Shown piece after piece: positions 32,290 to 59,863 of a stretch of 64,000 bases of DNA (its first letter is position 1; every line of letters starts with the position of its first letter). Both the position numbers and the translations under genes were made by a program. This DNA is from Fulvivirga sp. M361 (GTDB lineage: Bacteria > Bacteroidota > Bacteroidia > Cytophagales > Cyclobacteriaceae), in contig NZ_VKDC01000008.1 of the NCBI RefSeq assembly GCF_007097395.1, positions 186,001 to 250,000 of the forward strand, in the 5' to 3' direction. A model generated the notes under the pieces. The model searched no databases. It worked only from the letters and a program-made list of their open reading frames with translations, and had not been told where the DNA came from.

Positions 32290-32306
32290 TGTTAATTTTT
32301 ACCAAT

Positions 32307-34220
32307 ATGAAAAAAATAGTTTACAGCATAGTTTTCTCTTCTTTCTGGCTGCTTTCCGGGTGTGAAGACTACCTGAACAAAGTAGAGGAATTCGAAGGGC
32401 TCCAGGAAGAAGATGTGTTTTCCGATATTCAATTGGCCAGCGATTTTCTGGATGGCGCCTATACACGACTCATTGCAGAAACCAGTGCCCGGGATCATCG
32501 CTCAGACTGGTTGCCCGGTATGACAATGTCGGACGAGGGGTACTCCGGGAGACTGGACAGGAGCCTCCCGGAGACCTTTAGTATCTATGCGCAGGGAGAT
32601 TATCTGAGCCTGATGAACAGACCCTCCAATGCGCAGACCACTCCCTATTTTGTAGACCGTTACTACCAGGGGTGGAAAGGGATACGGACGGTGAATACAT
32701 TCATCGACAAAGCAGATCAAATACAGAATAGCAGCCAGGAGGAGATTAACAGTTTGCTAGGCCAGGCTTATTTTCTGAGAGCCTATTTCTATCACCTTAT
32801 GACCAAACGCCATGGCGGGCTGGTATACCTGAAAACGAACCTTGATTTAAATGCTTCATTTGATCGCGAAAGGGACACCTATGCGAACAACGTAACCGAC
32901 ATGCTGACGGACCTGGACCTGGCGATCAACCTGCTTCCCACCTCATGGGATTCGGGCAGATATGGAAGGCCTACCAAAGGCGCTGCTATGGCCCTAAAGT
33001 CCCGGATCACCCTGTTTGCAGCCAGCCCTCTCGCTAATACATCGGGAAGCCAGGAATTATGGGAAACTGCAGCTTCGGCAGCAAGGGACATGATCGACCA
33101 CGCTAATACAACCGGCTTGTACCAGTTCACTGATGCCAGTGACGCCATTAATATGGACGTGGATCTGGGTGGGACAGATCTCCTGGTATCTGAACCTGTA
33201 CAACTCACATCCTACCGCAGTATGTTTGTAGGTGCGGGTACCGCCAAGATTATCCCGGAAGAAGTCATTCTGATGGAACTGAATCCATTGTTTGATCTGC
33301 CCAACGGCAATTTTTTGAACCCTATCCCACGTCTGAGTCTCACTGCAGGGTTTGATATTATAAAGGGCAATACGAACCCCATGAATATTGGTGCTCTGGC
33401 AGGCTTTATAGACTATTTTGAAACAAAGAACGGACTGGATATTGACGATGATCCTTCCTATGATCCCCAAAACCCTTTTATTAACAGAGACCCCAGATTT
33501 TACAATGCGATATTGTTTGACGGGGTACCCTGGCAACATACCATAGGCGCCATTAATAAGACAGGATTTGCTGACCTTGCACTGGTGAATGAAGAAGGGA
33601 AGAGGGGGCTGGACCTTCATGATCCTGCGACCCCGGCATCGCGCCTGTGGCGGGTGATGAACCTGACAGGGCTCAGAATACGGAAGTGGGTGCCCAATGG
33701 TGCCTTTTGGCAATCCGGTGCCAGTGGCTCCTGGGATTTTTACGTGAACAATATCCATTTCAGGTTGGCAGAGATATATCTCAACTACGCTGAAGCCGTC
33801 AATGAAGCTTTCGGACCTGCGGGTACTGCACCCGGTGCTTCCCTAACTGCCCTGCAGGCAGTGAACAGGGTCCGTAACCGGGTAGGTATGCCCGATGTCA
33901 ACCCGCTTTACAGTGGTTCCAGGGAAACGTTGCGGGAAAGGATCCGGGCAGAGAGGGCCGTGGAACTGTGCTTTGAAGGACATCGCTACGACGACCTGCG
34001 CCGATGGAAGATAGCACATCTGGAAGAGTATAAGAAAGTGGAATTCCTGGTTATGCGCTGGGAAGGTGGTCCTACTCCAACGTATCCGACAGGGTTCAGT
34101 TTTACAGTTGAAGAACAGGACAATCTGCGTAAGACGTTTAACGAGCGCCACTACTGGTGGCCTATTCCTTCCAGTGAAATTGCAGCCGTTCCATCCTTCA
34201 GACAAACACCCGGATGGTAG
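32307..34220 (+). CDS. SusD/RagB-type glycan-binding lipoprotein (pair 1)
   Basis: A 637-residue lipoprotein. I prefer the ATG at 32307, which gives a tidy signal (MKKIVYSIVFSSFWLLSGC); an ATG six codons earlier overlaps the SusC stop (TAATG) and may serve for coupling. The mature protein starts EDYLNKVEEFEGLQEEDVF, typical of SusD. TPR-like helices (LLGQAYFLRAYFYHLMTKRHGG) and the C-terminal RERIRAERAVELCFEGHRYDDLRRW block confirm the family. It would cap the pair 1 SusC barrel at the cell surface and bind the target glycan. Confidence 0.95.
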   Translation: MKKIVYSIVFSSFWLLSGCEDYLNKVEEFEGLQEEDVFSDIQLASDFLDGAYTRLIAETSARDHRSDWLPGMTMSDEGYSGRLDRSLPETFSIYAQGDYLSLMNRPSNAQTTPYFVDRYYQGWKGIRTVNTFIDKADQIQNSSQEEINSLLGQAYFLRAYFYHLMTKRHGGLVYLKTNLDLNASFDRERDTYANNVTDMLTDLDLAINLLPTSWDSGRYGRPTKGAAMALKSRITLFAASPLANTSGSQELWETAASAARDMIDHANTTGLYQFTDASDAINMDVDLGGTDLLVSEPVQLTSYRSMFVGAGTAKIIPEEVILMELNPLFDLPNGNFLNPIPRLSLTAGFDIIKGNTNPMNIGALAGFIDYFETKNGLDIDDDPSYDPQNPFINRDPRFYNAILFDGVPWQHTIGAINKTGFADLALVNEEGKRGLDLHDPATPASRLWRVMNLTGLRIRKWVPNGAFWQSGASGSWDFYVNNIHFRLAEIYLNYAEAVNEAFGPAGTAPGASLTALQAVNRVRNRVGMPDVNPLYSGSRETLRERIRAERAVELCFEGHRYDDLRRWKIAHLEEYKKVEFLVMRWEGGPTPTYPTGFSFTVEEQDNLRKTFNERHYWWPIPSSEIAAVPSFRQTPGW

Positions 34221-37174: not shown

Positions 37175-38917
37175 ATGAAACGTTTACCTAAGCAGCTTAC
37201 TATAATCCTTCTGATCACCTTATGCCTTGCCGGTTGTGAGGAATTCCTGGAGGATGAAATACAGACTTTGAAGACAGAGGAAGTGATCGACTTCAGGGAG
37301 CAGTCACGAGGCCTGATCAATGATATTTATTCGGATTATGCCTTTAACTATTTTAGTGACTTTTCCATAGAGTACCTGACAGACAATGCTGTCAATCGTA
37401 GCTCTCCCCAGCATTTGGCTACCGGTTTTTGGGGGCCTACTGATAATCCGTTCGGCAACCTATGGAAACGATCCTACAACAATATCCGGCAGGTGGTCCA
37501 ATACATAGAGGAGGTCCATAACACCGGACTCCCTTTTAAGCCTGCCGCCCAGGATTCGCTGGAGAACGTACGAACGCTTAGACGTTACTTTGGGGAAGCC
37601 CATTTTTTGAAAGCCTTTGCAGAGTGGGAGTTACTCAGGATCTACAGCGGGCCATCTGCAGCCACAGGAGATATGTTGGGATTTCCCATCATCAACAGTA
37701 TTTTGGCCTCCGGTGACTACACCACTCTGTCCCGGGCTTCTTTTGAACAATGTGTAGATCGTGTTATGATGGACCTGGATACTGCCATTCAGTACCTTCC
37801 TTTAATCTATTCCGGAAAGGGGAACAGCAATCCCGGATACAGTGTCATAGAAACAGGCAGAGCCAGCGGTCTGGCTGCTCATGCGCTTAAGGCCAAAGTG
37901 GCGCTACTTGCAGCGAGTCCGGCATTTAATCCTACGAATGACGTGAGCAAATGGGAGCGTGCAGCCCAGTTGGCACATGAATTGATCATCCAAAACGGAG
38001 GGTTAAAGACCCTTCAGCCCTATGATTTCAGAAGGGAGGACAACCCGGACCACATCTGGAGGCTGAGATTGTTCAGACAGAACAACAGCCTGGAGCGACG
38101 TTTGTATCCTCCGACCTTGTTTGGCCAGGGTGAAGTGAACCCATCACAAAATCTGGTCGACGCATTTCCGGCAGTCAATGGATATCCCATCAGTGCCGTG
38201 GAAAGCGGTTTCGATCCTGACAATCCCTATGCAAACAGGGACCCGCGCTTTAACCGGTTCATTTTCTTCAACGGGGACCATTGTTTTGACAATTCCTCCG
38301 GATGCCAGAACTATGACACCCTGGAGATCTTTGAGGGTGGAAGGGACTATTTCGGTGGTTTTATCCCTAATGTGGGTACCCGTACGGGGTACTACCTGAA
38401 AAGATTTCTGAATGACCTTGATTTTGATCCTTCTGTGAATGATGCCGTCACTAATCTGCCAAAGGTTTACGTGCAGCTGGGACTGACAGAAATGTATCTG
38501 ACCTATGCTGAAGCAGCTAACGAAGCCTACGGCCAGCCCAATACCATTCCACCTGGAATGACTTTTTCTGCCCGGGAGGCGTTGGCCTTCGTTCGGCAGC
38601 GTGCCGGCATCAGTCCTGACCCCTATCTGGATGCAGTTGCCTTATCGACAGATGATTTCAGGGAGCTGGTTAGAAATGAACGTAGGATAGAACTGTCCTT
38701 TTCAGGTGAGCGGTTTCATGACCTGAGGAGATGGAGGATTATTGATACTATGGATAATGTACGTGGTATGAAGATCCTCAGAAATGACAACAATACCTTC
38801 AGTCATGAGGAGATCAGTGTGGAAGATCGTGTTTTTGATGCAAAGAACTATTATCTGCCACTACCCTATGAAGAGCTGTTGTTGAACACTAACCTGGAAC
38901 AGAATCAGGGATGGTAG
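37175..38917 (+). CDS. SusD/RagB-type lipoprotein (pair 2)
   Basis: A 580-residue lipoprotein, signal MKRLPKQLTIILLITLCLAGC (Cys21), mature start EEFLEDEIQTLKTEEVI. Helices include RRYFGEAHFLKAFAEWELLR, and the C-terminal family block FRELVRNERRIELSFSGERFHDLRRW is intact, ending with the NQGW tail seen in SusD proteins. It follows the pair 2 SusC gene by 25 bp. Sequence divergence from the pair 1 SusD suggests a different ligand. Confidence 0.94.
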   Translation: MKRLPKQLTIILLITLCLAGCEEFLEDEIQTLKTEEVIDFREQSRGLINDIYSDYAFNYFSDFSIEYLTDNAVNRSSPQHLATGFWGPTDNPFGNLWKRSYNNIRQVVQYIEEVHNTGLPFKPAAQDSLENVRTLRRYFGEAHFLKAFAEWELLRIYSGPSAATGDMLGFPIINSILASGDYTTLSRASFEQCVDRVMMDLDTAIQYLPLIYSGKGNSNPGYSVIETGRASGLAAHALKAKVALLAASPAFNPTNDVSKWERAAQLAHELIIQNGGLKTLQPYDFRREDNPDHIWRLRLFRQNNSLERRLYPPTLFGQGEVNPSQNLVDAFPAVNGYPISAVESGFDPDNPYANRDPRFNRFIFFNGDHCFDNSSGCQNYDTLEIFEGGRDYFGGFIPNVGTRTGYYLKRFLNDLDFDPSVNDAVTNLPKVYVQLGLTEMYLTYAEAANEAYGQPNTIPPGMTFSAREALAFVRQRAGISPDPYLDAVALSTDDFRELVRNERRIELSFSGERFHDLRRWRIIDTMDNVRGMKILRNDNNTFSHEEISVEDRVFDAKNYYLPLPYEELLLNTNLEQNQGW

Positions 38918-39041: not shown

Positions 39042-39947
39042 ATGCTTTACAATAACCAGAGAATGTTTACGATCATCCTGTTAGCCATGGGAGCCTTGCT
39101 TGCCTCCTGTGGTTATGATGATTTTGTCGAGAACGAATTTGAATATACGGCAGTCTACTTGCCTAAGGCAGAAATAGCACGGACTTTCATAATGGATGAA
39201 GGGATGAAGATTGGTGTAGGTGTGGTGCTGGGTGGGAGATTGTCAAATGACAGAGACGTAGAGGTCACTTTTTCACTGGACTCGACAGCTACCGTGGATG
39301 CAGGGTATGCTGTGCTTCCGGAAAGTCACTACAGGCTGGAAGGGCCTGACGGACAGCCTGTAAGTAACACCATAATCGTGCCTGCCGGAAAAGTACAGGG
39401 GTTTGTATACATCAAGGCAGATTCGGCTATCTTTTTGTCAGACCCTGTTGCTCTTGGACATAATTATGCATTGAGTTTTCAACTGGAAGAAGTCATAGGA
39501 GCAGATTCGATATTGGCCGACCTCACCACGACCACCATTTCTTTCTCTTACATCAACCAGCTCTTTGGAAACTACGTGCAGCGCGGGCGGATCACCCGAA
39601 TGGAAAAGGGTGATCCTGTTGAACCCGTCATATACCCCGGAGGTATAGATGACGTTATAGCGTTGACTATGCACGCTCCGGATACACTCATTGTAGAAGG
39701 TATTGGGGAATCGAGGCAGTCAGGTGATAAAATGAAGATAGCTATTGGCGATGACAATACGATTGACATTATCAGCTTTCCCGGGGCAACACCGGTTACG
39801 GATGACGGGGGATCCAGGGTGAACAGGATGGCCAGAGAGGTGATACTTAACTATACCTTTGAAGTCAACGATATCATCCATACGGCCAGAGATACACTTG
39901 ACTTCAGGAACAGGGTGGTGGACGGAGTGAATCAGTTTAACCTGTAA
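39042..39947 (+). CDS. DUF1735-type surface lipoprotein (SusE/F-position glycan-binding protein)
   Basis: A 301-residue lipoprotein; the signal ends LLASC (Cys23 from the first ATG; a second ATG at 39063 is also possible). The N-terminal part (about 25-160) has the DUF1735/BT_3987-like pattern (YTAVYLPKAEIARTF, YAVLPESHYRLEGPDGQ, VPAGKVQGFVYIKAD), and the rest (about 165-301) looks like a DUF4361-type beta domain. Such proteins follow SusD in many utilisation loci and are expected to bind the target glycan on the cell surface. It lies downstream of pair 2 and upstream of the HTCS gene. Confidence 0.85.
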   Translation: MLYNNQRMFTIILLAMGALLASCGYDDFVENEFEYTAVYLPKAEIARTFIMDEGMKIGVGVVLGGRLSNDRDVEVTFSLDSTATVDAGYAVLPESHYRLEGPDGQPVSNTIIVPAGKVQGFVYIKADSAIFLSDPVALGHNYALSFQLEEVIGADSILADLTTTTISFSYINQLFGNYVQRGRITRMEKGDPVEPVIYPGGIDDVIALTMHAPDTLIVEGIGESRQSGDKMKIAIGDDNTIDIISFPGATPVTDDGGSRVNRMAREVILNYTFEVNDIIHTARDTLDFRNRVVDGVNQFNL

Positions 39948-40039
39948 TCCGTGACAAAGTACAGGATCTGATCGTTGGATTGCTTTTTCCAGCGAGAATG
40001 ATTAAGTTATCTTTCAATTTTGATGGATAAGTGGTTGAA

Positions 40040-43000
40040 ATGAATGCGATGAGCCCGATACATAGTCCGAATGAATGTAATGACTTGTTTAAGATATACA
40101 AGGAACGGGTTCTGAAGTGCTGCTTATTAAAGCGGCATGTGGTATGGCTTTTCTGCCTTCAGGTTGTTTCCCAGGCTGCATTTTCTCAATACAGCCTGAA
40201 TCATCTGTCCGTTAATGATGGGCTTACTCACAGTGACGTGGTGGCCATCGTACAGGATATATCCGGTATTATCTGGCTGGGTACTAATAACGGATTGAAC
40301 CGGTACGACGGATATACGTTTCAGACCTTCAAGCATGATTTTGAAGATAGCCTCAGTTTGCCGAACAACCGGATGAAGGACTTATTTTGTGATTCCCGGA
40401 ACAGGGTATGGATGGTTACAGAGAAGAACTTCATTTCCTACTATGAGTCAGAGACCGGCCGTTTTTGCAATATGTTAATTGGGAATAGCGAAAGCGAAGA
40501 AATAGAGCAGATCGTGGAAGACGACGAAGGCAATATATGGTATTGGACAACCCAGGGCCGTCTGAACAAAATAACGTGGACCGATGATGGGTATAATCTC
40601 ACACACTTCTCAATGCCTTTGGAAGTCACCATTTTGGAAATCCTGGCTTTTGATTCAAAGGTCTGGATAGGTACAAAGGCCCATGGCCTGTGGCAACTTG
40701 AGACGGGTAATGGTAAGATCAGTAGAGTACATACCGGGCTTTTCAGGTCCGCGTATTCCATGGGGGTGTTGGACGATGTCCTGATCGTTGCTACAGATCG
40801 AGGATTATATAGGATGTCAGGCATGGCAGGTTGGGAAGCGTTATTTCTATGGGAGGACCGTTCTATTAGTGATATAGTGGTAGATTATCATAAGAATATC
40901 TGGGTCGGGGTATACGATGGGGGTGTAGTGCAGTTAAAAAGAAAGCAAGACGGCAAATATATCCTGGGGTATACCTATACTGTATCCAATCAACTTAGCA
41001 CGAACAGAGTAAATGACCTGATGATAGATTCCTTCGATGTGCTATGGATAGGTACTTCCGGAGGTGGCGCATATTTTATTGATCTGCAAGCCAAACCATT
41101 CCAGGTCATTAACAATACCAATACCACAATTCCTGATAATTACGTCACAGCAATCCACGAGGACCATGACCAGCTTTGGGTCGGTACCCGTCACGGTCTT
41201 GCCAGGGTCAATGCGGCAGGAGAGGTTACTGTTTATGAGCCTGAGCGACATATATCGGCCCTCCACAGGGACCGTACCGGACAGCTTTGGATCGGTACCC
41301 GCTTCAATGGGCTCAGACTTTTACAAAAAGACGGGACGATACAGGAATTCTCCAGTAGGGGAAAACAGGGACTATGCAGTGACAAGGTGATAGGCATCAG
41401 TGAAGATGCCTTTGGAAGGTTATGGATAGCTACCTTCAATCAGGGAGTGACATTGATGGACATAGCTACGAAAAAGATACTGGCTTCCCTGAATGAGAAC
41501 AACTACCTGCCTACTAATAATCTGACATACATATATTCCGATCCGCAAAATGCTCATGTGATATGGCTTGGAACACGGGATGCCGGATTACTGAAGCTTT
41601 CCTTTCCCGGGATTTCGAAGATGGCTGTGGAAAACTACCGGTTCAGTGTGACAGACAGGTCGTCGATCAGTTCCAATTATGTGTGGCCTGTTTTGAGGAC
41701 CAGTAGCAATACCCTTTGGGTGGGCACCATTGGAGGGGGTCTAAATAAAGCCGTTGAAAGTCCCAGTGGTGTTGTATTTCAGCATTTTACAGAGAAAGAC
41801 GGACTTGCAGACAATGACATCGAGTCTATACTGGAGGATAATTCAGGAAGCCTGTGGTTAGGAGGCAAGGGACTTGTAAGGTTTGATCCTAAAGACAGCA
41901 GCTTCGTGGCTTATGATGTGAATGACGGACTGCAGTCAAATTCTTTCAAAATAGGCGCGGCATTCAAAAATGATAAGGGACAGTTGTACTTTGGCGGGAT
42001 CAACGGGCTGAATTACTTTGATCCTGAAAAGATCATCCCTAACCCTCACAAGCCGAAGGTGATCTTTGACGATCTTAAGATCTTCAACCGTTCGGTAAGT
42101 GTAGGGGAGCGTATCCATGACCGGGTATTGTTGCCTAAAAAACTCGACTACCTTCCTGAAATTACCCTGAAGGCTGCCGAAAATGAATTTACGATTGACC
42201 TGCTTGGGTTGCATTACGCCAATCCCGGTCAGAACAAATATGCCTACAAGCTGGAAGGGTACAGTCAGGATTGGGTTTATCAAAATGCGGACCAGCGTCG
42301 TGTAACATTTTCCAATCTTCGGGCAGGAAGCTACCGGTTCATGGCTAAAGTGTCTAATAGTGACGGTCAATGGAGTGAAAACCGCATTCTCCGGATCAAC
42401 ATCTTGCCACCCTGGTGGGCTACCTGGTGGGCGTTTTTCGCCTATTCCCTGCTCATCCTGGGACTGTTATACCTATACGGGTTTTTGATGAGACGCCAGT
42501 CTGCATTGCGGCATGATCTGGTGCTGGCAGAAAAGGAAAAGGACCTGAATAAGCAAAAAATAAGATTCTTCACTAATATATCACATGAGATCCGAACTCC
42601 TCTCACCCTTATCCATAGCCCGCTGGAAGAGATTATTGAAGAGGGCCCCGGAGTGATTGGTTTTTCAGAAAAACTGGGCCTTATCCAGAAAAACGTCAAT
42701 CGCCTGCTGGCGCTTACCAATCAGCTTCTTAACTTCAGAAAAATGGAAAGTGGCAATATGGTCCTGCAGGTAGCTGAGGGGAACTTTATAAAATTTGCCC
42801 GTGAGATATGTCTGGCCTTTCAACATATGGCCCATGAAAAGAAGATCCGTTACAATTTTCAGATAGACAGAGAATCCACCCAACTGACCTTTGACCGGGA
42901 TAAATTTGAGATCATTTTGACTAACCTGATATCGAACGCCATTAAATATACAAAAGCCGGCGGCAGGATTGATATACAAATGAGGTCCGTGGGGAATGAT

Positions 43001-44200
43001 GCTGAAGAAGCAATTTTTGAAAAAATAAAAGGAAAGAACAGATTATCCAATCATTACCTCGAGATAGGCGTCAGGGATAACGGCATTGGCATGTCGAAAG
43101 AGGAGGTAGGCAAGATATTTGACCGCTTTTACCAGGTCGGGGGACTCGATACATTATCTATTCATGGCACGGGCATTGGCCTGGCTCTTGTAAAGGGGAT
43201 CATCGACCTGCACAAAGGGGAGATTAAAGTAAAGAGTATAAGAGGCAAAGGCTCTGAATTTATAGTGAAGATACCCTTTGGCAGCGCCCACTTTGATAAG
43301 TTACTGCTTTTGAAGGATTTCAGAGATAGTGATGATCGTATTCACTACCCTTCGATGGAAGAGGAACCACAGATCATTGAGCATAAAAGTGAGCCTTCTG
43401 CCATAAAGCAGTGTGTCCTGATCGTTGAGGACAATAAAGATGTACTCACTTACCTGGGTAAGCATCTCAGACAGCGCTACAGGGTGGTATGCGCTGCTGA
43501 TGGTAAGGAGGGCCTTAGCAAAGCACATCATTATCTGCCGGACCTTATCATCAGTGATGTAATGATGCCGGAGATGGATGGTCTGGAGATGCTTTCCGCC
43601 ATAAAACGTGATCCGGACCTTTCCTTTATCCCTGTTATTCTGCTGACGGCAAGGACCGCCACAGTTTATGAGTTGGAAGGAGTAGGTATAGGAGCCCATG
43701 ACTATATCACTAAACCGTTTAATATCCGAATATTGTTGGCCAAGGTAGCCAGTATATTAGCGACACGGGAAAACTTCAAGCGCTATTACGAAGCCCATAT
43801 TCGTTTACAGCCCGTTACCGAAGCGATATTGCCTAATTCAGAGCAGAAATTCCTCGATGAGATCACCGGCCTGGTCATAGATAACCTTACCACTGATAAT
43901 TTCTCCGTACAGATGATGGTAAGGGAAATGGGAATGAGCCAGTCCGCCTGCTATAAGAGAATAAAGGAGCTTACCGGTCGGTCTGCCGTTCAGTTTATCC
44001 GGGATATCAGGCTGAAGAGATCCGCAGAGTTACTCCTGACAGGTGAGTTGAATGTATCGGAAGTGGCCTACAGTGTAGGCATCAATGACTTGAAATATTA
44101 CCGGGAGAAATTTAAGGAGCAATATGGGTGCAATCCAAGTGATTACCCTTCCGGTGATACGATGAATGACAAGGAACCGGTTCCTCATAAGCTTGAGTAG
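40040..44200 (+). CDS. Hybrid two-component system regulator (HTCS)
   Basis: A 1386-residue one-protein sensor-regulator. The ATG at 40040 is chosen; a GTG three codons upstream is possible. The N-terminal segment holds an internal signal/anchor (HVVWLFCLQVVSQAAFSQ). The periplasmic sensor consists of about 14 Reg_prop beta-propeller repeats (IIWLGTNNGLNRYDG, VLWIGTSGGGAYFID, QLWIGTRFNGLRLLQ) and a Y_Y_Y domain (about 740-795). A transmembrane helix follows (about 805-825), then HisKA (FFTNISHEIRTPLTLIHSP), HATPase_c (NLISNAIKYTKAG, IGVRDNGIGMS), a receiver (LPDLIISDVMMPEMDGLEM) and an AraC-type HTH (VSEVAYSVGINDLKYYREKFKEQYG). HTCS proteins bind glycan oligosaccharides and activate the adjacent locus. 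Confidence 0.96.
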   Translation: MNAMSPIHSPNECNDLFKIYKERVLKCCLLKRHVVWLFCLQVVSQAAFSQYSLNHLSVNDGLTHSDVVAIVQDISGIIWLGTNNGLNRYDGYTFQTFKHDFEDSLSLPNNRMKDLFCDSRNRVWMVTEKNFISYYESETGRFCNMLIGNSESEEIEQIVEDDEGNIWYWTTQGRLNKITWTDDGYNLTHFSMPLEVTILEILAFDSKVWIGTKAHGLWQLETGNGKISRVHTGLFRSAYSMGVLDDVLIVATDRGLYRMSGMAGWEALFLWEDRSISDIVVDYHKNIWVGVYDGGVVQLKRKQDGKYILGYTYTVSNQLSTNRVNDLMIDSFDVLWIGTSGGGAYFIDLQAKPFQVINNTNTTIPDNYVTAIHEDHDQLWVGTRHGLARVNAAGEVTVYEPERHISALHRDRTGQLWIGTRFNGLRLLQKDGTIQEFSSRGKQGLCSDKVIGISEDAFGRLWIATFNQGVTLMDIATKKILASLNENNYLPTNNLTYIYSDPQNAHVIWLGTRDAGLLKLSFPGISKMAVENYRFSVTDRSSISSNYVWPVLRTSSNTLWVGTIGGGLNKAVESPSGVVFQHFTEKDGLADNDIESILEDNSGSLWLGGKGLVRFDPKDSSFVAYDVNDGLQSNSFKIGAAFKNDKGQLYFGGINGLNYFDPEKIIPNPHKPKVIFDDLKIFNRSVSVGERIHDRVLLPKKLDYLPEITLKAAENEFTIDLLGLHYANPGQNKYAYKLEGYSQDWVYQNADQRRVTFSNLRAGSYRFMAKVSNSDGQWSENRILRINILPPWWATWWAFFAYSLLILGLLYLYGFLMRRQSALRHDLVLAEKEKDLNKQKIRFFTNISHEIRTPLTLIHSPLEEIIEEGPGVIGFSEKLGLIQKNVNRLLALTNQLLNFRKMESGNMVLQVAEGNFIKFAREICLAFQHMAHEKKIRYNFQIDRESTQLTFDRDKFEIILTNLISNAIKYTKAGGRIDIQMRSVGNDAEEAIFEKIKGKNRLSNHYLEIGVRDNGIGMSKEEVGKIFDRFYQVGGLDTLSIHGTGIGLALVKGIIDLHKGEIKVKSIRGKGSEFIVKIPFGSAHFDKLLLLKDFRDSDDRIHYPSMEEEPQIIEHKSEPSAIKQCVLIVEDNKDVLTYLGKHLRQRYRVVCAADGKEGLSKAHHYLPDLIISDVMMPEMDGLEMLSAIKRDPDLSFIPVILLTARTATVYELEGVGIGAHDYITKPFNIRILLAKVASILATRENFKRYYEAHIRLQPVTEAILPNSEQKFLDEITGLVIDNLTTDNFSVQMMVREMGMSQSACYKRIKELTGRSAVQFIRDIRLKRSAELLLTGELNVSEVAYSVGINDLKYYREKFKEQYGCNPSDYPSGDTMNDKEPVPHKLE

Positions 44201-44347: not shown

Positions 44348-46822
44348 ATGATAAAACACTCCGTAAGCCCCTATATAGTGGTCATTTTCTTAACGATGCT
44401 TGGCGGTTGTTCTGTGAACCCTATGCCGGTGAGTGAGCAAAAAGGACGCTATTCCTATGACTTTAACTTGAAATGGAAGTTTAACCTGGGTGATTTTCCC
44501 GGAGCTTCCGGCGTAGATTACCCGGATGAGGACTGGAGAATGCTGAACCTCCCTCATGACTGGAGCATTGAAGGAGACTATGACAGTCTTAACCCGGCAG
44601 GCCCGGCAGGAGGATTTCTGCCTGCGGGTATCGGATGGTACCGCAGGTACTTTGAATGGAATCCGGAATGGCAAAACAAGCGGGTGGTGATAGAATTTGA
44701 TGGTGTCTATTGTAATTCCACTGTTTGGATCAACGGTGTTGAGTTAGGCATAAGACCCAATGGATACATAGGCTTTTCCTATGATCTGACCCCACATCTT
44801 CAACAAGGAAAGAACCTGCTTGCTGTACGTGTTGATCATTCCAAAGTGCCGAGTGGAAGATGGTATACTGGGTCCGGTATTTACAGGAATGTCAGACTTG
44901 CCGTCATGGAGCAGCTTTACATCCCCGCCGGAGGTTTATTCATACGTACGCCCGAAGTAGATAAGAAGTCAGCAGAAGTAGCAGTCGATCTTGAAGTGAT
45001 CAACGAGGTTCCTGAAATGGATGAGATACGGATCATCTATACAATAACAGATCAGAATGGACGACACCAGGCGGATAACACCCAGGTGGTGGAGCTTGTA
45101 CAAGGCGAAAACCAAACACAGACGATACTGGAACTGCCTGACCCGTTACTATGGTCACCGGATACTCCAAACCTGTACTACCTGACAGTGACGATTGCAT
45201 CCGGAGGGAAAGTCTGGGATGAATACCAATCTTCTTTTGGTGTGCGGACTATTTCTTTCACCACTGAAAACGGTTTTTTACTCAATGGTGAAAAAACCAT
45301 CCTGAAGGGAGTCTGTAACCATCATGATGCCGGGCCGGTAGGTGCCGCTGTGCCGGTGGATGTATTGCACCGAAGACTGAAGATCCTTAAAAACATGGGG
45401 TGTAACGCCATCCGAACATCTCATAACCCTTTTGCCCCGGAGTTTTATGCTCTGTGCGATTCCATGGGGTTTATGGTCATGAACGAAGCATTTGACGGAT
45501 GGGAGGCGGAAAAGGCGGCGTTTGATTACGGACTGAATTTTGAGGAATGGTGGGACAAAGACCTGGAGGCCTTTATAAAAAGGGACCGTAACCACCCCAG
45601 CGTGATTATTTGGAGCATAGGCAATGAAGTAAAGAAGTATACTGATGCTACACAGCGTAAGCTGACAGGTTTTGTTAAAAAACTGGACAATACCCGGCCT
45701 ATAACACAGGGAAGAGGATATAATGGCCCGGCAGTTGACCTGGCGGGATTCAATGGTCACGGAGAGTACAGGAACGGACTGAAGCATTTTCATGAGAAAA
45801 ACCCCACAAAGCCCATAGTTGGGACGGAAATCACACACGGAATGCAGACCAGGGGGATCTATCGGACTAAAACACAGTACAGACGGAGAGATTATCCTGC
45901 GCCATGGGAGATAGGAAAGCCCTTTAGCGGGATAGCCAAAAAGGTCTTTCTCGTGGAAGATCTGACAGACGAAGAGCTATTTGCAGACATCAACCCCTTG
46001 TATCATTCCTCCTATGACAATTCCATCGTACGCATGAGTATTCGTGATTATTGGAGAGAAACCAAAGACCTGACGTATTTCATGGGTTCATTTCGCTGGA
46101 CAGGCTTCGACTATCTTGGTGAGTCCTTTAGCTGGCCCGCCAGAACAATGAGTTTTGGGGTGATCGACCTGGCTGGCTTCCCGACAGATAGCTATTACCT
46201 TTATCAGAGTATATGGTCAGACAAACCTATGGCGCATATGCTTCCGCACTGGACCCATCCCGGTTTGGAAGGAGTGGAGATACCGGTGGTAGTTTATACC
46301 AACTGCACATCGGCAGAGCTGTTCCTTAATGGCAAATCTTTGGGTGAAAAGCCAATGACTGATGAATTAAGGATTATTTGGAAGGTGCCTTATAGCGCAG
46401 GAGAGTTGAAAGTAGTGGCTAAAACAGACGGTGAAGTGATGGCCACACAAACGTATCGAACAGCAAGAGAGCCTTATGCCATCGCCATTGATATGGACAG
46501 GAGCATACTTTCTGCCAATCATAAAGATGTAGTTCATGCAGAAATAACGATTGTAGATAGAAACGGAGTAGCAGTACCCGGTGCCGGTAACCTGCTGAAC
46601 TTTGAGATTGAAGGCCCTGCAAGACTCATCGGAGTGGAAAACGGGGATATATTAGACCTGAGTCCGCACAAGGTGAGTTACAGAAAGACCTTCAATGGAA
46701 AGTGCCTGGCAATTATACAGTCCACGGGAGCTGACGGTGATTTCGAGTTGAAAGTCACTTCGGAAGGGCTGAAGAAAAGCAGTGTGAAGGTAAGGGTCAA
46801 ACCCTCTCAAAAGCCAATCTAG
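44348..46822 (+). CDS. GH2 beta-galactosidase-type lipoprotein
   Basis: An 824-residue exported lipoprotein (signal ending TMLGGC). Domains in order: sugar-binding jelly roll (about 30-185; LNLPHDWSIEGDYD, VVIEFDGVYCNSTVWING), Ig-like (about 190-300), and TIM barrel (about 305-600) with acid/base E427 in VIIWSIGNEVKKY and nucleophile E494 in PIVGTEITHG. A DUF4982-like domain and a C-terminal Ig-like domain complete it. This is the arrangement of Bacteroidota GH2 beta-galactosidases and beta-glucuronidase-like enzymes. Both catalytic Glu are intact, unlike the GH2 protein at 48960. It starts just after the HTCS gene. Confidence 0.93.
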   Translation: MIKHSVSPYIVVIFLTMLGGCSVNPMPVSEQKGRYSYDFNLKWKFNLGDFPGASGVDYPDEDWRMLNLPHDWSIEGDYDSLNPAGPAGGFLPAGIGWYRRYFEWNPEWQNKRVVIEFDGVYCNSTVWINGVELGIRPNGYIGFSYDLTPHLQQGKNLLAVRVDHSKVPSGRWYTGSGIYRNVRLAVMEQLYIPAGGLFIRTPEVDKKSAEVAVDLEVINEVPEMDEIRIIYTITDQNGRHQADNTQVVELVQGENQTQTILELPDPLLWSPDTPNLYYLTVTIASGGKVWDEYQSSFGVRTISFTTENGFLLNGEKTILKGVCNHHDAGPVGAAVPVDVLHRRLKILKNMGCNAIRTSHNPFAPEFYALCDSMGFMVMNEAFDGWEAEKAAFDYGLNFEEWWDKDLEAFIKRDRNHPSVIIWSIGNEVKKYTDATQRKLTGFVKKLDNTRPITQGRGYNGPAVDLAGFNGHGEYRNGLKHFHEKNPTKPIVGTEITHGMQTRGIYRTKTQYRRRDYPAPWEIGKPFSGIAKKVFLVEDLTDEELFADINPLYHSSYDNSIVRMSIRDYWRETKDLTYFMGSFRWTGFDYLGESFSWPARTMSFGVIDLAGFPTDSYYLYQSIWSDKPMAHMLPHWTHPGLEGVEIPVVVYTNCTSAELFLNGKSLGEKPMTDELRIIWKVPYSAGELKVVAKTDGEVMATQTYRTAREPYAIAIDMDRSILSANHKDVVHAEITIVDRNGVAVPGAGNLLNFEIEGPARLIGVENGDILDLSPHKVSYRKTFNGKCLAIIQSTGADGDFELKVTSEGLKKSSVKVRVKPSQKPI

Positions 46823-46999: not shown

Positions 47000-48931
47000 A
47001 TGACCAGTCAACTATTTATCCGATCACTTTTTCTTGTTTTATTGCTTTCCGGGTGTTCCAGGCAGTGGCAAGAGAAGCCTAATATCATCCTTGTTGTGAT
47101 TGATGATCTTGGTTATGCTGATCTTGGCTTTTTACCTCATGCGGCTTCTGATGTCAGCACACCTAATATTGACAGACTTGCTTCCACGTCTGTATTTTTT
47201 TCCCGGGCTTATGCTACATCACCGATATGCAGTCCTTCCAGAGCGGGTCTCATCACCGGTAAGTACCAGCAACGCTGGGGAAACTACTGGTATGGAGAAG
47301 GCGGGCTTCCCGAAAGTGAAAAAAAGCTCCCACAGTTACTGTCAGAACAGGGCTACTATACTGCCAAAATAGGGAAAACCCATATGAATGGCGGACCGGT
47401 GGAGCATCCACTTGACCATGGTTATCAGTATTTTATGGGTTTTATGGACCACACATGGGATTACCTCAGGCTCAGCGAAAAGGACGAAAAAGCCTATGGG
47501 CTCAAGAATGCGAAAAGGGCACACATAGGTGCACTAATCAAGAATAGAGATAAGGTTTCCTTTGAACAGGACTACACTACGGATATTTTCTCCAGGGAGA
47601 CGGTCAGAGTCATAGAAGATCAGGACCAGCCGTTCTTTATTCACCTTTCCTATAACGCGGTACATCATCCTATTTATGTTGGTCACCCGGCATACCTGGA
47701 GAAGTATGGCTTACAGCAGTTCCCTTTTTGGGACCCTGCCCGGGAGACCTACGGGCAGTGGCACAAAAAATGGGGGCACCTTGGTGAGGTAGATTCGGAT
47801 GGGAGAAAGCGCTACTTACTGCAATTAAATGTACTGGATGACGGTATCGGAAAAATCTGGCAGACCCTGGAAAGATCTGGGAAATCAGAAAATACGGTGA
47901 TAGTTCTGGTTTCCGATAATGGTGGAACGATCAATACTTATGCCAATAATCAACCGCTTAGCGGTTATAAATACATGTTCGGTGAAGGGGGTATCAGGGT
48001 ACCTATGATGTGGTATGTCCCGTCGATAAAGATGGGTCGGCAGGAAAACAAACAACTGGTTTCTGCCATGGACATTATGCCTACACTATTGGAACTGGCA
48101 GGTGCTGAAGTGCCTCCTGATCTCGATGGGAAAAGTCTGTTGAAAATATTGGAAGAACAGAAAGTGCCGGCACAGACAGTACATGACCGGCTTTTCTGGT
48201 CTGATGGTCGCGACCAATGGGTGGCGATGGACCGTAAATGGAAGCTGGCCCATAATATCGGGTGGACCCACTTGAACTACAAAACAGAACAGGGCCGGCA
48301 GTTGAGGGCTGATCCTTATGAATACGGCGGGGGCATACAGCTTTATGATCTTGAAAAAGATGAGGCGGAGAAAACGAATCTGGCTGCGCGGCATCCCGAG
48401 ATCGTCACAGCACTGACCGATAGCTACTGGCGGTGGAGAAACAGCATGTCAGACCCAAAGACGGGCAAGGGTGAGTTGAAACCTTTGACTGGAGGGTATC
48501 CCCGTCAAAATACTTTGCCAGAGGGAATTGTTAATACCTATAGCAATAGTTCGCCGATCAACCACTATGCTGCCTGTGCATTTGACGGAGATCCTGCTAC
48601 CTCATGGCAAAGTAAAAAGGGAAATGATGCGGCTATACTCCCCTACTTTATTGTGACCGCACTGGATCAAAAACGTCTGATACGGGGGCTTCGACTTTTT
48701 CCTAAGAAAGGTAAGAGGACGTCAGCGATAAAAAACTATAGCTGCTATACCTCTGAAAACGGTACGGACTGGCAGTTGATCACTCAGGGTTCATTTGAAA
48801 ATGATACATTTCAGAAGCGAGTAACATTTCCGGAAAAAGTGGAAACGGCGTTTCTTAAATTTCAAATGGATGCCTTATATGAAGGTCCGGAGGCCACCGC
48901 TTTGTCTGAACTGGAGTGGTTGGTAGAATAA
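47000..48931 (+). CDS. S1-family sulfatase lipoprotein with F5/8-type C-terminal domain
   Basis: A 643-residue lipoprotein (LLLSGC, Cys19). The alkaline-phosphatase-fold catalytic domain starts KPNIILVVIDDLGYADLG (D35/D36 metal ligands) and has the sulfatase signature CSPSR at 77-81, where C77 would be oxidised to formylglycine; other residues appear in YYTAKIGKTHMNG and VLVSDNGGTINTY. From about 500 a discoidin/F5/8-type C domain follows (AACAFDGDPATSWQSKKG, LRLFPKKGKRTSAIKNY). It should remove sulfate from the carbohydrate target outside the cytoplasm. The Cys-type maturase gene is not in the window. It indicates that the glycan processed by this locus is sulfated. Confidence 0.95.
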   Translation: MTSQLFIRSLFLVLLLSGCSRQWQEKPNIILVVIDDLGYADLGFLPHAASDVSTPNIDRLASTSVFFSRAYATSPICSPSRAGLITGKYQQRWGNYWYGEGGLPESEKKLPQLLSEQGYYTAKIGKTHMNGGPVEHPLDHGYQYFMGFMDHTWDYLRLSEKDEKAYGLKNAKRAHIGALIKNRDKVSFEQDYTTDIFSRETVRVIEDQDQPFFIHLSYNAVHHPIYVGHPAYLEKYGLQQFPFWDPARETYGQWHKKWGHLGEVDSDGRKRYLLQLNVLDDGIGKIWQTLERSGKSENTVIVLVSDNGGTINTYANNQPLSGYKYMFGEGGIRVPMMWYVPSIKMGRQENKQLVSAMDIMPTLLELAGAEVPPDLDGKSLLKILEEQKVPAQTVHDRLFWSDGRDQWVAMDRKWKLAHNIGWTHLNYKTEQGRQLRADPYEYGGGIQLYDLEKDEAEKTNLAARHPEIVTALTDSYWRWRNSMSDPKTGKGELKPLTGGYPRQNTLPEGIVNTYSNSSPINHYAACAFDGDPATSWQSKKGNDAAILPYFIVTALDQKRLIRGLRLFPKKGKRTSAIKNYSCYTSENGTDWQLITQGSFENDTFQKRVTFPEKVETAFLKFQMDALYEGPEATALSELEWLVE

Positions 48932-48959: not shown

Positions 48960-51809
48960 ATGACTTACAATAAAAATATAAAAATCAGTCTTCTACTGAT
49001 GTTGATGGCCTTTGGATTGTCAGCACAAAACAGGATTTTTCTTTCAGGAAAAGATGCCGGCCATGCAGAGCTTTGGGATTTCAGGATATCTACAGGGCGA
49101 AACAGCGGATACTGGACTAAAATTCCGGTACCGTCCAATTGGGAGCTGCAGGGCTTTGGCTATTATACCTACGGTAAGGACCATAAACAGTATCGTGAGA
49201 ACCCTGAAATAGGGTACTATAAAAAGGACTTCTTCCTGGAGAATGTACCTGGTAAACGTTACCGGCTGACTTTTGAGGGGGTGATGACGGATACTCATGT
49301 CAAAATAAATGGTAAAAAGGCCGGTATGGTCCATCAGGGTGGATTCACGCAATTCCAATATGAAATCACTGACCATATCAGAGCAGGCATGAATACCCTG
49401 GAGGTGGAAGTACATAAATCTTCGGCACATCCCAGTGTGCAAAGGTCGGAAAGGAAGGCAGATTATTGGCTGTTTGGAGGAATATACCGCCCCGTATATA
49501 TCGATGCATTGCCTTTGGAATATACAGAACGTGTGGCCATTGATGCAAAAATGGATGGCGCTTTTCATGGGACAGTTCATGTCGATGGTGTAACAGGTGC
49601 TGTGCAGGTAGAGGCCAGGGTAATTTCATCCGATGGTAAGACGCTAGGTAAGCCTCTGACTGCCGTTGCTGACAAAGGAGATAGTCTTGTTATCATGACC
49701 GGCAAATTTTCAGGTATCAAACCATGGTCACATGAATACCCTAATTTGTACAAGCTGGTAGTGGAATTAAAAAAAGCAGGTAAGGTGGTCCACACGTATT
49801 CACAAAAGTTTGGCTTCCGCACATTTGAGGTGCGTGATAAGGATGGGTTCTACCTCAACGGCAGACGAATTTTACTCAAAGGAGCCAATATGCATAGTTT
49901 TCGTCCTGCTGGCGGACGTGCCCTGTCCCGTAAAGACATTGAGCAGAACTTCAGGTTACTGAAGGAGTTGAATTTCAATTGTGTGAGACCATGCCATTAT
50001 CCTCCGGATGCTTATTTTTTCGATCTGTGCGATTCGCTGGGGCTGCTGGCTATGGATGAATTGCCGGGATGGAATGCGCCCCTGCAAACCGGTGTCGGTG
50101 CCACGATGGTGAAAGAATTGGTGGTTCGTGACGTTAACCACCCCAGTATTGTCCTTTGGGGTAATGGAAACCACGTGTCACATAATCCTGAATTGGATGA
50201 GCATTTTTTCAAATGGGATATCCAAAAACGCCGTCCACTGAAAAACGCAGCGAAAAAGGAGGATATCTTTAAAAACTATCGTCCCTCCTTTGATATTGTT
50301 GACACACGTTTTTATCCTTCCTACGATAACCTGATCGATCGTCTGAATGGCGAGCACATCGTTTTACCTAATGAAGCGCTTCATGCCCTCTATGATGGGG
50401 GCGGAGCGGCCAGTCTCAAAGATTACTGGGATGCCTTTAAAGCATCAAAGGTAGGCGGAGGGTTGATGATATGGGCTCTATTTGATGAATGTGTGGTACG
50501 TTCGGATGAAGGCTTCCGGCTGGATTGTCAACAAAATAAAGCACCAGACGGTCTTGTAGGGCCGAATGGGGAAAAAGAAGGCAGCTACTATGCTGTTAGG
50601 GAAATATGGTCGCCGGTCCAGGTAGACCCTATGGTGGCGGATAAGGGCTTTGATGGCACGCTTAGTGTCTCCAATGAATTTACGTTTGTGAATTTAAAAG
50701 AGTGCCGGTTCGAGGGTAGTTTGCTCCATTTTAGCACCCCTAATGCGGCGGCTATCGGGTACCGGGAACGCGGGGTTTCTGTGGTGGTGGACGATTTACC
50801 TGCAGGAGAAAAAGGAAAAATCAAGGTCAACCTCCCTCATGATTGGGAAAGCTATGATGCGCTCCGGCTCACCGTATGGGATAACCAGGGAAACGAGGTG
50901 GATACATGGACCTGGCCGATAGGTGTGCGCAAAGGCCTCGCTTCCTGCTTTGTTGGCACCTTAAAAAAGCAGCTTGTCCGGGACCCGGAAGATGCTTTTT
51001 CGGTAAAGGTTGGAAGTACAGTTTTTAAATTTGATGAGGCTACGGGAGCTCTTACAGAAGTAGTTACAGGAAATAAAAGATTCCCTGTAGGAGCGACACC
51101 CTTTTTAGTCTGTCATGCTGAAAATGATCTTGAGCCAACTGCCTTGCCAAAAGGTAAAGTGACGGTCCGTAAAAAGAACGACGCCATTGTAATAGAAAGC
51201 AGTCACATCAACGGTTTTGACCACCTTAAGTGGACGGTCAGGCCCGAAGGGTATCTCACACTTGATTATGCCTACACCTTGCCCAGGGGAGAATACTATT
51301 ATGCCGGCATAGGGCTTAGACTTCAAAACGAGGATGTTCTTGGGAAGCGTTGGCTTGGGGAAGGTCCGGCAAGGATATGGAAAAACAGGATGGAAGGCGG
51401 AGAATTGAATGTGTGGGATCAGGCAAAGAAATTAAATGTCCCCGGAGAGGTCTACGACCCTCCTGCATTTGAAGGCTGTTTTGCACCTTGGTATTGGAGT
51501 ATATTCAGGCTTACAGGTAACCGTACCCTGGGGCTTTCCACAAATTCCGAGGGGCTGGTACTGGGGGTATCCACACCGGTAAATGGAAAAGATCCAAAGT
51601 TTGCCACCTGGCAGTATCCTGAGGAGGAAGGTATATATATCTTCAATTACATTTCTCCGGTGGGTGCCAAATGGAGAGGAGCACGTGAGTTTGGTCCTTC
51701 CGGCCAGCTCAACCGGATAGATGGGACCTGCACAGGTTCGATAAATCTTTATTTTGACTGGAACCAGGCTGATCTGACTACAGAAAAGTTTGAGGTCGAA
51801 ATTGAATAG
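48960..51809 (+). CDS. GH2-like protein with missing acid/base Glu
   Basis: A 949-residue exported protein (signal ending MAFGLSAQ). Sugar-binding domain (about 50-180; IPVPSNWELQGFGYYTYG), Ig-like domain (about 190-285), TIM barrel (about 290-560) and long C-terminal beta domains follow the GH2 beta-galactosidase plan. The nucleophile region is normal (E472 in VLPNEALHALYDGG). The acid/base motif, which in this group reads GNGNEGG, is GNGNHVS here, so residue 405 is His. Other barrel motifs (FNCVRPCHYPPDAYFFDLCD, GGGLMIWALFDECV) are intact. The protein may be inactive, a binding protein, or use another acid. It is between the sulfatase and the broken alpha-galactosidase gene. Confidence 0.9.
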   Translation: MTYNKNIKISLLLMLMAFGLSAQNRIFLSGKDAGHAELWDFRISTGRNSGYWTKIPVPSNWELQGFGYYTYGKDHKQYRENPEIGYYKKDFFLENVPGKRYRLTFEGVMTDTHVKINGKKAGMVHQGGFTQFQYEITDHIRAGMNTLEVEVHKSSAHPSVQRSERKADYWLFGGIYRPVYIDALPLEYTERVAIDAKMDGAFHGTVHVDGVTGAVQVEARVISSDGKTLGKPLTAVADKGDSLVIMTGKFSGIKPWSHEYPNLYKLVVELKKAGKVVHTYSQKFGFRTFEVRDKDGFYLNGRRILLKGANMHSFRPAGGRALSRKDIEQNFRLLKELNFNCVRPCHYPPDAYFFDLCDSLGLLAMDELPGWNAPLQTGVGATMVKELVVRDVNHPSIVLWGNGNHVSHNPELDEHFFKWDIQKRRPLKNAAKKEDIFKNYRPSFDIVDTRFYPSYDNLIDRLNGEHIVLPNEALHALYDGGGAASLKDYWDAFKASKVGGGLMIWALFDECVVRSDEGFRLDCQQNKAPDGLVGPNGEKEGSYYAVREIWSPVQVDPMVADKGFDGTLSVSNEFTFVNLKECRFEGSLLHFSTPNAAAIGYRERGVSVVVDDLPAGEKGKIKVNLPHDWESYDALRLTVWDNQGNEVDTWTWPIGVRKGLASCFVGTLKKQLVRDPEDAFSVKVGSTVFKFDEATGALTEVVTGNKRFPVGATPFLVCHAENDLEPTALPKGKVTVRKKNDAIVIESSHINGFDHLKWTVRPEGYLTLDYAYTLPRGEYYYAGIGLRLQNEDVLGKRWLGEGPARIWKNRMEGGELNVWDQAKKLNVPGEVYDPPAFEGCFAPWYWSIFRLTGNRTLGLSTNSEGLVLGVSTPVNGKDPKFATWQYPEEEGIYIFNYISPVGAKWRGAREFGPSGQLNRIDGTCTGSINLYFDWNQADLTTEKFEVEIE

Positions 51810-51869: not shown

Positions 51870-53890
51870 ATGAAATACACAAGGTTGGTCATGCTACTTA
51901 CTTTTTGGCTTTTGTCCTGTTCGGATAACAGGCTTTCCCGATTGGAATTTACCTGTGGAAATGCAAGCGCTTTTACAAAAGGTGACCAACTGGTCCTGTC
52001 GACTGGTCTGGTGGAAAGAGTTTATAAAATTACAGACTACGGACTGACTACCATACAACTAAGTAATGGTTTGTCATCCGGGGAATGGGTCAATTCGGAC
52101 AGAGGTTTGTGCGATTGGGCGATAGGGGAGAATGTGCGGGGCAACTTGCTTTCGCTAAGAGCACGGGTATCTGATGATGAAAGGTTTACTAACGAGCACA
52201 TTTTAGTGGAGGCGGAGTTTGAGTACCCGGAAAAATTTATGATCATTAAATACATTGCATGGGTCTATCCTGACGCTTTGGGTTTAAGAACACAACTTCA
52301 GATAAAAGCTATGCCGGGTTATTCTGCACGGAGTGAAAGATTTTCTGCTGATGTTACGGAAACACTGGAGTTGTCTGAAATGCCGGATGAGATGATAGCA
52401 TTTGGACTGATGCAGGGAATAAAGACTAACATGACCGAAAGCCTGCTCACCGAACGCAGCCTGGAGCTTAAAGATCAAAAAATTAACTGGGCCAGCGGTA
52501 TGGTCCTGTCCGGTGATGATGACGGCATAGTATTGATCAAGGAATCCAATAAATCTACCAGCCTGAAGAGTGAAGGGGACGTGGCGACAGGTGATTTTGA
52601 GATAAAAAAGCAAAAAATCAGTACGTCAGGAGCAGGTATGTTCCCCTCTGATCTGAAAGAGGATGAATATACCAGCATGTGGGCCAATTGGATCGTACTT
52701 TATGCCGGAGATCGTGACGATGCCAACCTTGCCTTGAAGCAGTTTGACAGATTAAGATACCCTGTGCATCCTGACCGCGATGTATTTATAATGGCCAATA
52801 CCTGGGGTAGCGAGGATATGCCAACAGAATGTATTGCCGCAGCAAGAGAAGAAAATGTGTTAAAGGAGATAGAAAGTGTGGCTGACCTGGGGATAGATAT
52901 ATTGCAGATCGACGAAGGCTGGCAGAACAATGAATGGCTGCCTGCAAAGCATTCACGCGAGTTTCAACGGCTAAAATTCATCCAACGCGACTACCCGGTT
53001 TACCCACAGGGATGGAGAAAAGTACGTAAAAAAGCAGATTCTCTGGATGTGGAACTAGGGCTATGGGCGGCATGGACGATTCCCGAAGATAAGCTCAAGG
53101 TCAACTATGACAGTGGCAACTTCGCCTCCTTCAAACTTGATTTTGCCCATCTTAACTCCGCTGGAAAGCGGGATGATCTCATGAAAAAGGCCAGGAACCT
53201 TATAAAATATTCCGGCTATAACACCATAGTCAACTGGGATGTAACAGAGATAGCGCCCAGGGCCGGATATTTTTATGGACGGGAGTATGGAAATATTTAC
53301 CTGGAAAACAGAAAGATCAATACCGCGAGGGAAAACGTAATGTATGTACCTTATAAAGTGATGCGTGGCAGCTTTCCAAATATGTGAACCTCAATAAATT
53401 TCAAATTACCGTTCAAAATATCGACATGACCGGTGATAAGACCAAAACAGATGCTCACCTTCACAATCATCCCTACGTTGTGGCCATAACTCTCATGGGC
53501 AGTCCTATCTTTTTCCAGGAGACACATTATTATACAAAGGAAGCACGAGCAAAGATCAAACCATTGCTGGCCACATATAAAAAACATCGGGCGGAGATGT
53601 ACCAGGGATATGTTTTTCCGATGGGTGATGAGCCAGATAATAGCCAATGGACAGGATTCCAAAACCATCATTTGGAAAAAAACACCGGCTACCTGTTAAT
53701 TTTCAGGGAACTGAACAACCATGAGGTATCGAAAGAGGTTGCGCTTAAACACGTAAGAGCTGCTGAGATAAGACTGACCGATCTTATGACCAATGAGAAA
53801 CGAGTAGTGAGAATGAACGGAAGCAATGTTGTATTTGACATAGACGAACCCGCGGATTACAGGTTTTTCAGGTATGAAGTGTTGGATTAA
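51870..53890 (+). pseudogene. GH36-like alpha-galactosidase lipoprotein, frameshifted
   Basis: The first frame (51870-53387, 505 codons) encodes a lipoprotein (LLSC, Cys17) with an N-terminal beta domain and a TIM barrel of the GH27/31/36 clan: DILQIDEGWQNNEW, WAAWTIPEDKL, the nucleophile region FASFKLDFAHL (D424) and IVNWDVTEIAPRAGYFYGREYG (D457). It ends abnormally after VPYKVMRG. The second frame (-1, to 53890) continues the same protein with WQLSKYVNLNKFQITVQN and a C-terminal beta domain. One missing base near 53363-53366 explains the break; the joined protein is about 673 residues. Catalytic residues precede the break but the truncated barrel would be incomplete. A sequencing error is the other explanation. 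Confidence 0.85.
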
Positions 53891-59798: not shown

Positions 59799-59844
59799 AC
59801 AACAAATTGTTTTAAAAGAGAACAATGGGTATTTTTGTATTGTT
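59799..59844 (+). promoter_or_regulatory. Promoter and probable autoregulatory operator of the toxin-antitoxin pair
   Basis: TTG (59807-59809), a 19-base spacer and TATTTTTG (59829-59836) fit the Bacteroidota consensus TTG-N19-TAnnTTTG. Overlapping it are AACAA-A-TTGTT (59801-59811) and the inverted pair AACAAT-N12-ATTGTT (59821-59844), likely the binding site of the XRE domain of the antitoxin. Transcription would start at about 59842, which excludes the ATG at 59825 as a start codon. Confidence 0.7.
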
Positions 59845-59863
59845 AAAAGTTGAAAGTCCTATT

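Follow-up and report, generated by a model that had tools for sequence, protein, structure and literature searches.

A GH2-type protein with histidine at the acid/base position in a Fulvivirga utilisation locus

Introduction

In several glycoside hydrolase (GH) families, the acid/base residue has been described as a histidine. A review attributes the phosphorylase activity of the GH3 enzyme Nag3 to its His acid/base and states that the His/Asp dyad of some GH3 enzymes lets phosphate approach (PMC8950772). For GH117, combined quantum mechanics/molecular mechanics calculations support a His/Asp general acid, and GH3 and GH156 are named as similar in that study (PMC11574756). Here, we describe a GH2-type protein that has His as its acid/base-position residue and is encoded at positions 48960..51809 (+) of a 64,000-nucleotide stretch of the Fulvivirga sp. 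M361 genome (contig NZ_VKDC01000008.1, positions 186,001 to 250,000), referred to as the window. An earlier note, made from the sequence of the window, had drawn attention to this residue. No published description of a natural GH2 protein with a His acid/base was found among titles and abstract openings on His acid/base residues or GH2, a weak search with partial journal coverage. Both the His acid/base of other families and the GH2 fold are already known, but their combination looks new.

Results

The open reading frame starts with ATG, contains no internal stop and encodes 949 amino acids, in agreement with the intact gene that the earlier note had claimed. The protein consists of a signal-like N-terminus (residues 1-22 approximately, judged by eye), three GH2 domains and a C-terminal region. 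All three Pfam domains score above their gathering cut-offs (PF02837, 63.6 bits; PF00703, 49.3 bits; PF02836, 91.9 bits) and correspond to the sugar-binding, the Ig-like and the TIM-barrel domain of GH2, which assigns the protein to this family by its domain content. In a 129-row MAFFT alignment including LacZ of E. coli K-12 (NP_414878.1), LacZ E461 aligns with H405 (codon CAC, 50172..50174) and LacZ E537 with E472 (codon 50373..50375). The same register appears in the displayed phmmer alignments to GH2 proteins of solved structure (3bga and 6s6z), and together with LacZ these rule out an alignment slip. Both assignments of the earlier note, a His in the acid/base column and a conserved nucleophile E472, therefore hold against characterised GH2 proteins.

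Four relatives stand far above all other proteins, with 79 % (L031), 71 % (L032), 70 % (L033) and 51 % (L034) identity. They came from a search of 390 genomes belonging to the same family-level group, and together with the window gene they make up a His clade from five genomes of one family-level group. Homologues with His at this position, which the earlier note had suggested looking for, thus exist: all four carry the motif GNGNH. Four of the five clade members encode the His by CAC and one by CAT. The column of LacZ E537 is Glu in 5/5. We also considered another Glu as the acid/base residue, which the earlier note had named as a possible objection, and rejected it: the nearby Glu residues vary within the clade (E, E, G, A, A at residue 411; E, E, E, K, N in column 465). 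Because the LacZ E461 column is His405 in all five members, we classify the protein from its sequence as a GH2 variant and not as a canonical GH2 hydrolase.

The next best proteins belong to a large family and are about 33-41 % identical where an identity was printed. In this sister family the acid/base column is Glu in 78/78 proteins read (73/73 after removal of identical rows, to which five plasmid proteins were added), and the nucleophile column is likewise Glu in 78/78. In an alignment of the five His proteins and 25 sisters, 30/30 match NF049891, the model of the exo-beta-1,4-galactosidase BT4156, at an E-value of 0.001, and the His clade groups with 24 sisters in the tree with 99 % support in the Shimodaira-Hasegawa-like approximate likelihood ratio test (SH-aLRT). 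Further members of the clade were sought in 395 genomes of the phylum, 395 of the class and 390 of the order, sets that overlap and include the own genome; none was present among the matches listed. The best other match to the clade profile in the order search reached 829 bits versus 1940 bits for the window gene. A scan of viral contigs contained no relative of the window gene, and a scan of genome contigs matched one distant GH2 and L060 (Flammeovirgaceae bacterium BBD 1991-12, LYSV01000138.1), which is probably the same contig as that of L031, given the same position and identity. By this distribution, the His is a trait of a conserved clade and not a stray mutation.

A second group of His-bearing GH2 proteins is present in the own genome. 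After removal of repeat matches, 24 GH2-like genes besides the window gene were found in it, and 23 of them have Glu in the acid/base column. The 24th (L136:9168-12032, minus strand; G000:C35:92171-95032) has His within the motif INHRG and carries DUF4982 and Glyco_hydro2_C5 domains. Eight relatives were found in 196 searched genomes (nine proteins with the own one), and five more are encoded on plasmids, four of Persicobacter and one of Catenovulum. Both the His and the nucleophile Glu are present in 14/14 proteins read, one of which reads LNHRG. L138 and L146 do not differ in the columns used for the tree, which leaves at most 13 independent rows. Three of four weaker plasmid matches were read (L151, L157, L158) and all have Glu, while the fourth (H8) lies outside the count. 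Among the other paralogues of this genome, L022 (G000:C105:471336-471851, minus strand) has Val in the nucleophile column and keeps the acid/base Glu; its branch is long, and the Val may stem from misalignment.

A tree was computed by a quick search with the acid/base columns left out; L018, L022 and L024 have long branches in it. Each His group lies on one side of a branch with 100 % SH-aLRT support. Forcing all His proteins into a single clade lowered the log-likelihood by 144 and was rejected by the approximately unbiased test (p-AU 7.03e-9); two changes between Glu and His suffice on the tree. His at the acid/base column therefore seems to have evolved on at least two occasions in GH2, and the second independent lineage is the strongest argument that His was selected for and not merely tolerated.

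The own-genome INHRG gene has a sulfatase gene on one side and genes encoding GH43 and porphyranase domains on the other, which by domain content is a red-algal galactan setting. On the plasmids of Persicobacter psychrovividus and Catenovulum adriaticum, which belong to different phyla, the INHRG gene is directly followed by a DUF5060 gene (L146:14844-16490 and L147:14949-16565), and the two could possibly form a functional pair. No sulfatase is listed beside these two INHRG genes in the fetched stretches, the gene tables of which are incomplete. Consequently, the idea of a sulfated substrate is based on the window clade and this genome, and not on all INHRG members.

We then compared the constraint on the gene between the window genome and L031, a pair with a high synonymous divergence (dS 0.9-1.2; dS is saturated for most other pairs). 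The ratio of nonsynonymous to synonymous substitution rates (dN/dS) is 0.105 (NG86) or 0.146 (YN00) over the whole gene. For this one pair, it falls to 0.037-0.053 in the barrel (residues 290-560), compared with 0.129-0.181 before and 0.117-0.158 after it. In the same two genomes, the neighbouring sulfatase gene has a dN/dS of 0.095-0.140. In 68/68 sister pairs of 65-85 % identity, the barrel is likewise the part with the highest similarity; since it is the most constrained part in the His pair as well, it resembles the Glu-bearing family in this respect. His in 5/5 clade members versus Glu in 78/78 sisters makes a sequencing error very unlikely, and given the His of four other genomes, the open frame and the low dN/dS, we reject both such an error and a pseudogene.

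To describe the active site, we looked up 14 LacZ positions, for which we assume the catalytic and subsite roles of the E. coli enzyme. The columns of LacZ D201, H391, N460, Y503, E537, H540 and W568 hold the same residue in 5/5 clade members, and that of H357 in 4/5, with Asn in L034. The earlier note had stated that the protein lacks only the acid/base and that the other barrel motifs are conserved. This is correct for the nucleophile and most columns of the -1 subsite, but not for three features next to them. Position 471, adjoining the nucleophile, is N in the clade versus T in 78/78 sisters; position 451, adjoining the catalytic Tyr, is F or Y versus H in 78/78; and a segment from R425 to P442 (50232..50285) contains K428 followed by an inserted loop at about 429-442, which is missing from the sister family. 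Position 428 is K in the clade versus H in 69/78 and Y in 7/78 sisters, position 315 is R versus W in 56/78 and R in 6/78, and position 527, in the LacZ F601 column, is K in the clade and K or R in 8/78 sisters. From the LacZ columns we infer that such clade-specific residues line the active site.

The barrel also differs in charge. For residues 395-460, the clade members have net charges (K+R-D-E) of 0, -1, 0, 0 and 0, compared with a mean of -4.28 in the 78 sisters (standard deviation 1.71, range -9 to -1). Over the whole barrel the values are -5, -8, -6, -5 and -12 versus a sister mean of -13 (standard deviation 4.1), and for the regions flanking the barrel they fall inside the range of the sisters. 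Judged from composition, the barrel near His405 is thus less acidic than in the sisters, most clearly at 395-460. All clade members share the acidic residues D413, D420 and D445, of which only D445 is rare in the sisters (2/78).

All genes of the window locus up to the His405 gene are encoded on the plus strand. The locus starts with two pairs of SusC-like transporters and SusD-like proteins (SusC at 29185..32289 and 34267..37149, SusD at 32289..34220 and 37175..38917), followed by a protein with a BT_3987-like N-terminal domain (39042..39947), a regulator of the hybrid two-component system (HTCS) type (40031..44200) and a second GH2 (44348..46822), which matches the GalA/GalB models below their cut-offs and has Glu in the acid/base column. 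Directly upstream of the His405 gene lies a sulfatase gene (47000..48931; PF00884 with an F5/8-type C domain), the CSPSR motif of which presumably is the formylglycine motif. The earlier note had placed the two genes in an operon, which we treat as putative. They are adjacent on the same strand, 28 bases apart, and the sulfatase adjoins the His405-type gene in 3/4 relatives. Downstream, two plus-strand genes encode proteins of 505 (51870..53387) and 168 amino acids (53384..53890) that match neither Pfam nor NCBIfam models. The stretches of the relatives contain no window-like counterpart of the 505-amino-acid protein beside the gene, and no convincing relative of it was found among solved structures.

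Among the relatives, genome G159 keeps the order of the window locus with 70-79 % identity and has three more sulfatase-like genes downstream. Beside these lie two genes without a Pfam match (L063:3344-8030; 789 and 769 amino acids), which are candidate polysaccharide enzymes. The short contigs of G285 and G280 contain a sulfatase, the His405-type gene and a second sulfatase-like gene, for which the Pfam assignment refers to G285 only. G169 differs, as a GH3 gene lies directly upstream of the His405-type gene and the sulfatase precedes this GH3. Further downstream in the window, we noted a protein of 1616 amino acids (54607-59457, minus strand; L018) with GH2 domains in its middle, a weak N-terminal match to the F5/8 type C domain and Glu in the acid/base column, and a helix-turn-helix protein similar to the SocA/Panacea antitoxin (59825-60667) close to the carbohydrate genes.

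Discussion

Based on these observations, we propose that the window protein is an active periplasmic or secreted, retaining exo beta-galactosidase-like enzyme that would act on an anionic galactan, with His405 as the acid/base residue in place of Glu. We consider this proposal about as likely to be right as wrong, and we place the same even weight on the assignment of the acid/base role to His405 and of the nucleophile role to E472. In this scheme, the conserved LacZ-like residues D168, H346, N404, Y452, H475 and W505 would hold a beta-galactosyl unit, the C1 of which Glu472 would attack. Protonated His405 would donate its proton to the leaving oxygen and, once neutral, would activate a water molecule. 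The reason for the exchange could be charge: an anionic group close to the scissile bond would be repelled by a carboxylate but not by an imidazole. Clade-specific basic residues, R315, K428 and K527 among others, would make the site less acidic for a sulfated galactan oligosaccharide, and the setting would be a utilisation locus with a sulfatase. That a sulfated galactan fragment favours His405 is a step of our own, drawn from the tolerance of the GH3 His/Asp dyad for phosphate. From sequence and gene context we infer the enzyme activity, the role of His as proton donor, the location of the basic residues at the active site and the identity and charge of the substrate.

Several observations weigh against this proposal. 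The traits shared by the clade represent few independent events, since the clade is small (five genomes found), confined to one family-level group and derived from one shared ancestor. The His clade departs from LacZ at the columns of N102, M502 and F601; for these, as for E416 and H418, the commonest residue of the Glu-bearing sisters also differs from LacZ. The placement of K428 and K527 depends on a gapped alignment, the whole barrel of L034 (-12) is about as acidic as the sister mean, and the clade has invariant acidic residues of its own, namely D326, E328 and D445, which are rare or absent in the sisters, and D293, where the sisters often have Glu. An AlphaFold model from three sequences (the window gene, L060 and the neighbouring window GH2) has a mean predicted local distance difference test score of 34.5. 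In the INHRG alignment, the LacZ Y503 column is a gap and no His is among the residues printed at H540, so the site of this lineage departs further from LacZ. In a lambda-carrageenan pathway, desulfation has to precede the action of the GH2 (PMC12549532), a finding that weakens the case for a sulfated substrate, and GH2C from an agarose pathway is described with its catalytic residues positioned as in other GH2 exo-enzymes (PMC5849685); galactan loci as such therefore do not require a His. Finally, a sugar-binding pseudoenzyme could also retain the -1 subsite.

The earlier note had offered three readings: a retired binding protein, a transglycosidase-like enzyme and an enzyme able to work without an acid. 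The column and the nucleophile on which they were built stand, our results lean against retirement, and His itself as the acid/base was absent from its list. A catalytically retired GH2 would serve as a periplasmic sugar-binding or sensing protein, for example by presenting galactan fragments to the HTCS regulator. The loss of the canonical acid/base and the rarity of the clade would fit this role, and the second GH2 of the locus, which has Glu, could do the hydrolysis. We nevertheless regard retirement as unlikely. The nucleophile Glu and most of the LacZ -1 columns are kept in 5/5 members, the barrel is the slowest evolving part, the replacement is His in all five without drift, and the same His recurs in the second lineage together with the nucleophile Glu in 14/14 proteins.

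Somewhat less plausible still is a hydrolase or transglycosidase whose acid is unneeded or supplied by the substrate, be it through a good leaving group, a sulfate or carboxylate at the +1 position or an external base, for which the myrosinases are a precedent. His405 would then only position the substrate or water. The adjoining sulfatase and the less acidic barrel around the site agree with this idea, but a residue that merely leaves space might be expected to vary, whereas His is found in 19/19 proteins read from two lineages. Moreover, the linkages of polysaccharides are poor leaving groups, which normally need an acid.

A retaining beta-galactoside phosphorylase, in which the His would let phosphate replace water as in GH3 Nag3, is improbable; glycoside phosphorylases are usually cytoplasmic. 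According to the review cited above, some GH3 enzymes are phosphorylases since their His/Asp acid/base admits anionic phosphate, but the only retaining phosphorylases that it lists among the GH families are those of GH3 and GH13_18 (PMC8950772). The signal-like N-terminus and the SusC/SusD locus suggest a periplasmic location, where phosphorolysis would bring little gain. About as improbable is a metal-assisted enzyme in which a divalent metal would be bound close to the active site by H405 and H408. All clade members have H408; in LacZ, E461 contributes to Mg binding together with E416 and H418, and engineered E461H LacZ reportedly has an altered metal preference. However, the E416/H418 columns read W and A/S/R, and H408 is also present in 20/78 Glu-bearing sisters.

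A wider picture would be that GH2 evolved a working His acid/base at least twice, in marine-galactan loci, to tolerate anions near the scissile bond, and one of its members could be the first retaining phosphorylase of GH2. We hold this picture only tentatively, at slightly less than an even chance. Since the recognition of GH2 enzymes as active makes use of the acid/base Glu, such proteins would be taken either for inactive ones or for ordinary galactosidases. Two apparently separate, conserved replacements of Glu by His in one family offer a natural test of why GH3, GH117 and GH156 use His, with substrate charge, a phosphate acceptor or something else as candidate reasons. If active on sulfated galactans, the enzymes would also be useful tools.

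Among known systems, the window protein resembles BT4156: NF049891 is its best match among the NCBIfam models (residues 21-933), yet the 700 bits obtained are far below the 1700-bit cut-off of this equivalog model. The His clade is distinguished from the BT4156-like sisters aligned here by His for Glu, T471N, H451F/Y and the inserted loop. With E. coli LacZ it has the nucleophile and most -1 columns in common, but differs at E461, N102, M502, F601 and E416/H418. The INHRG lineage, for example WP_338399551.1 of P. psychrovividus and WP_268076891.1 of C. adriaticum, shares the His and the nucleophile Glu columns, but it belongs to another GH2 branch, is apparently of separate origin and is annotated in the database merely as GH2. 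GH3 enzymes of the Nag3/NagZ type resemble the window protein by the His of a retaining enzyme, described as acid/base in the review (PMC8950772). They belong to another family and use a His/Asp dyad; here, the invariant D413, D420 and D445 would be candidate partner acids. According to the GH117 study, His together with Asp replaces the carboxylate in GH117 and GH156, and GH117 acts on a red-algal galactan (PMC11574756); both are inverting enzymes of other families, and the GH117 dyad is supported by simulation.

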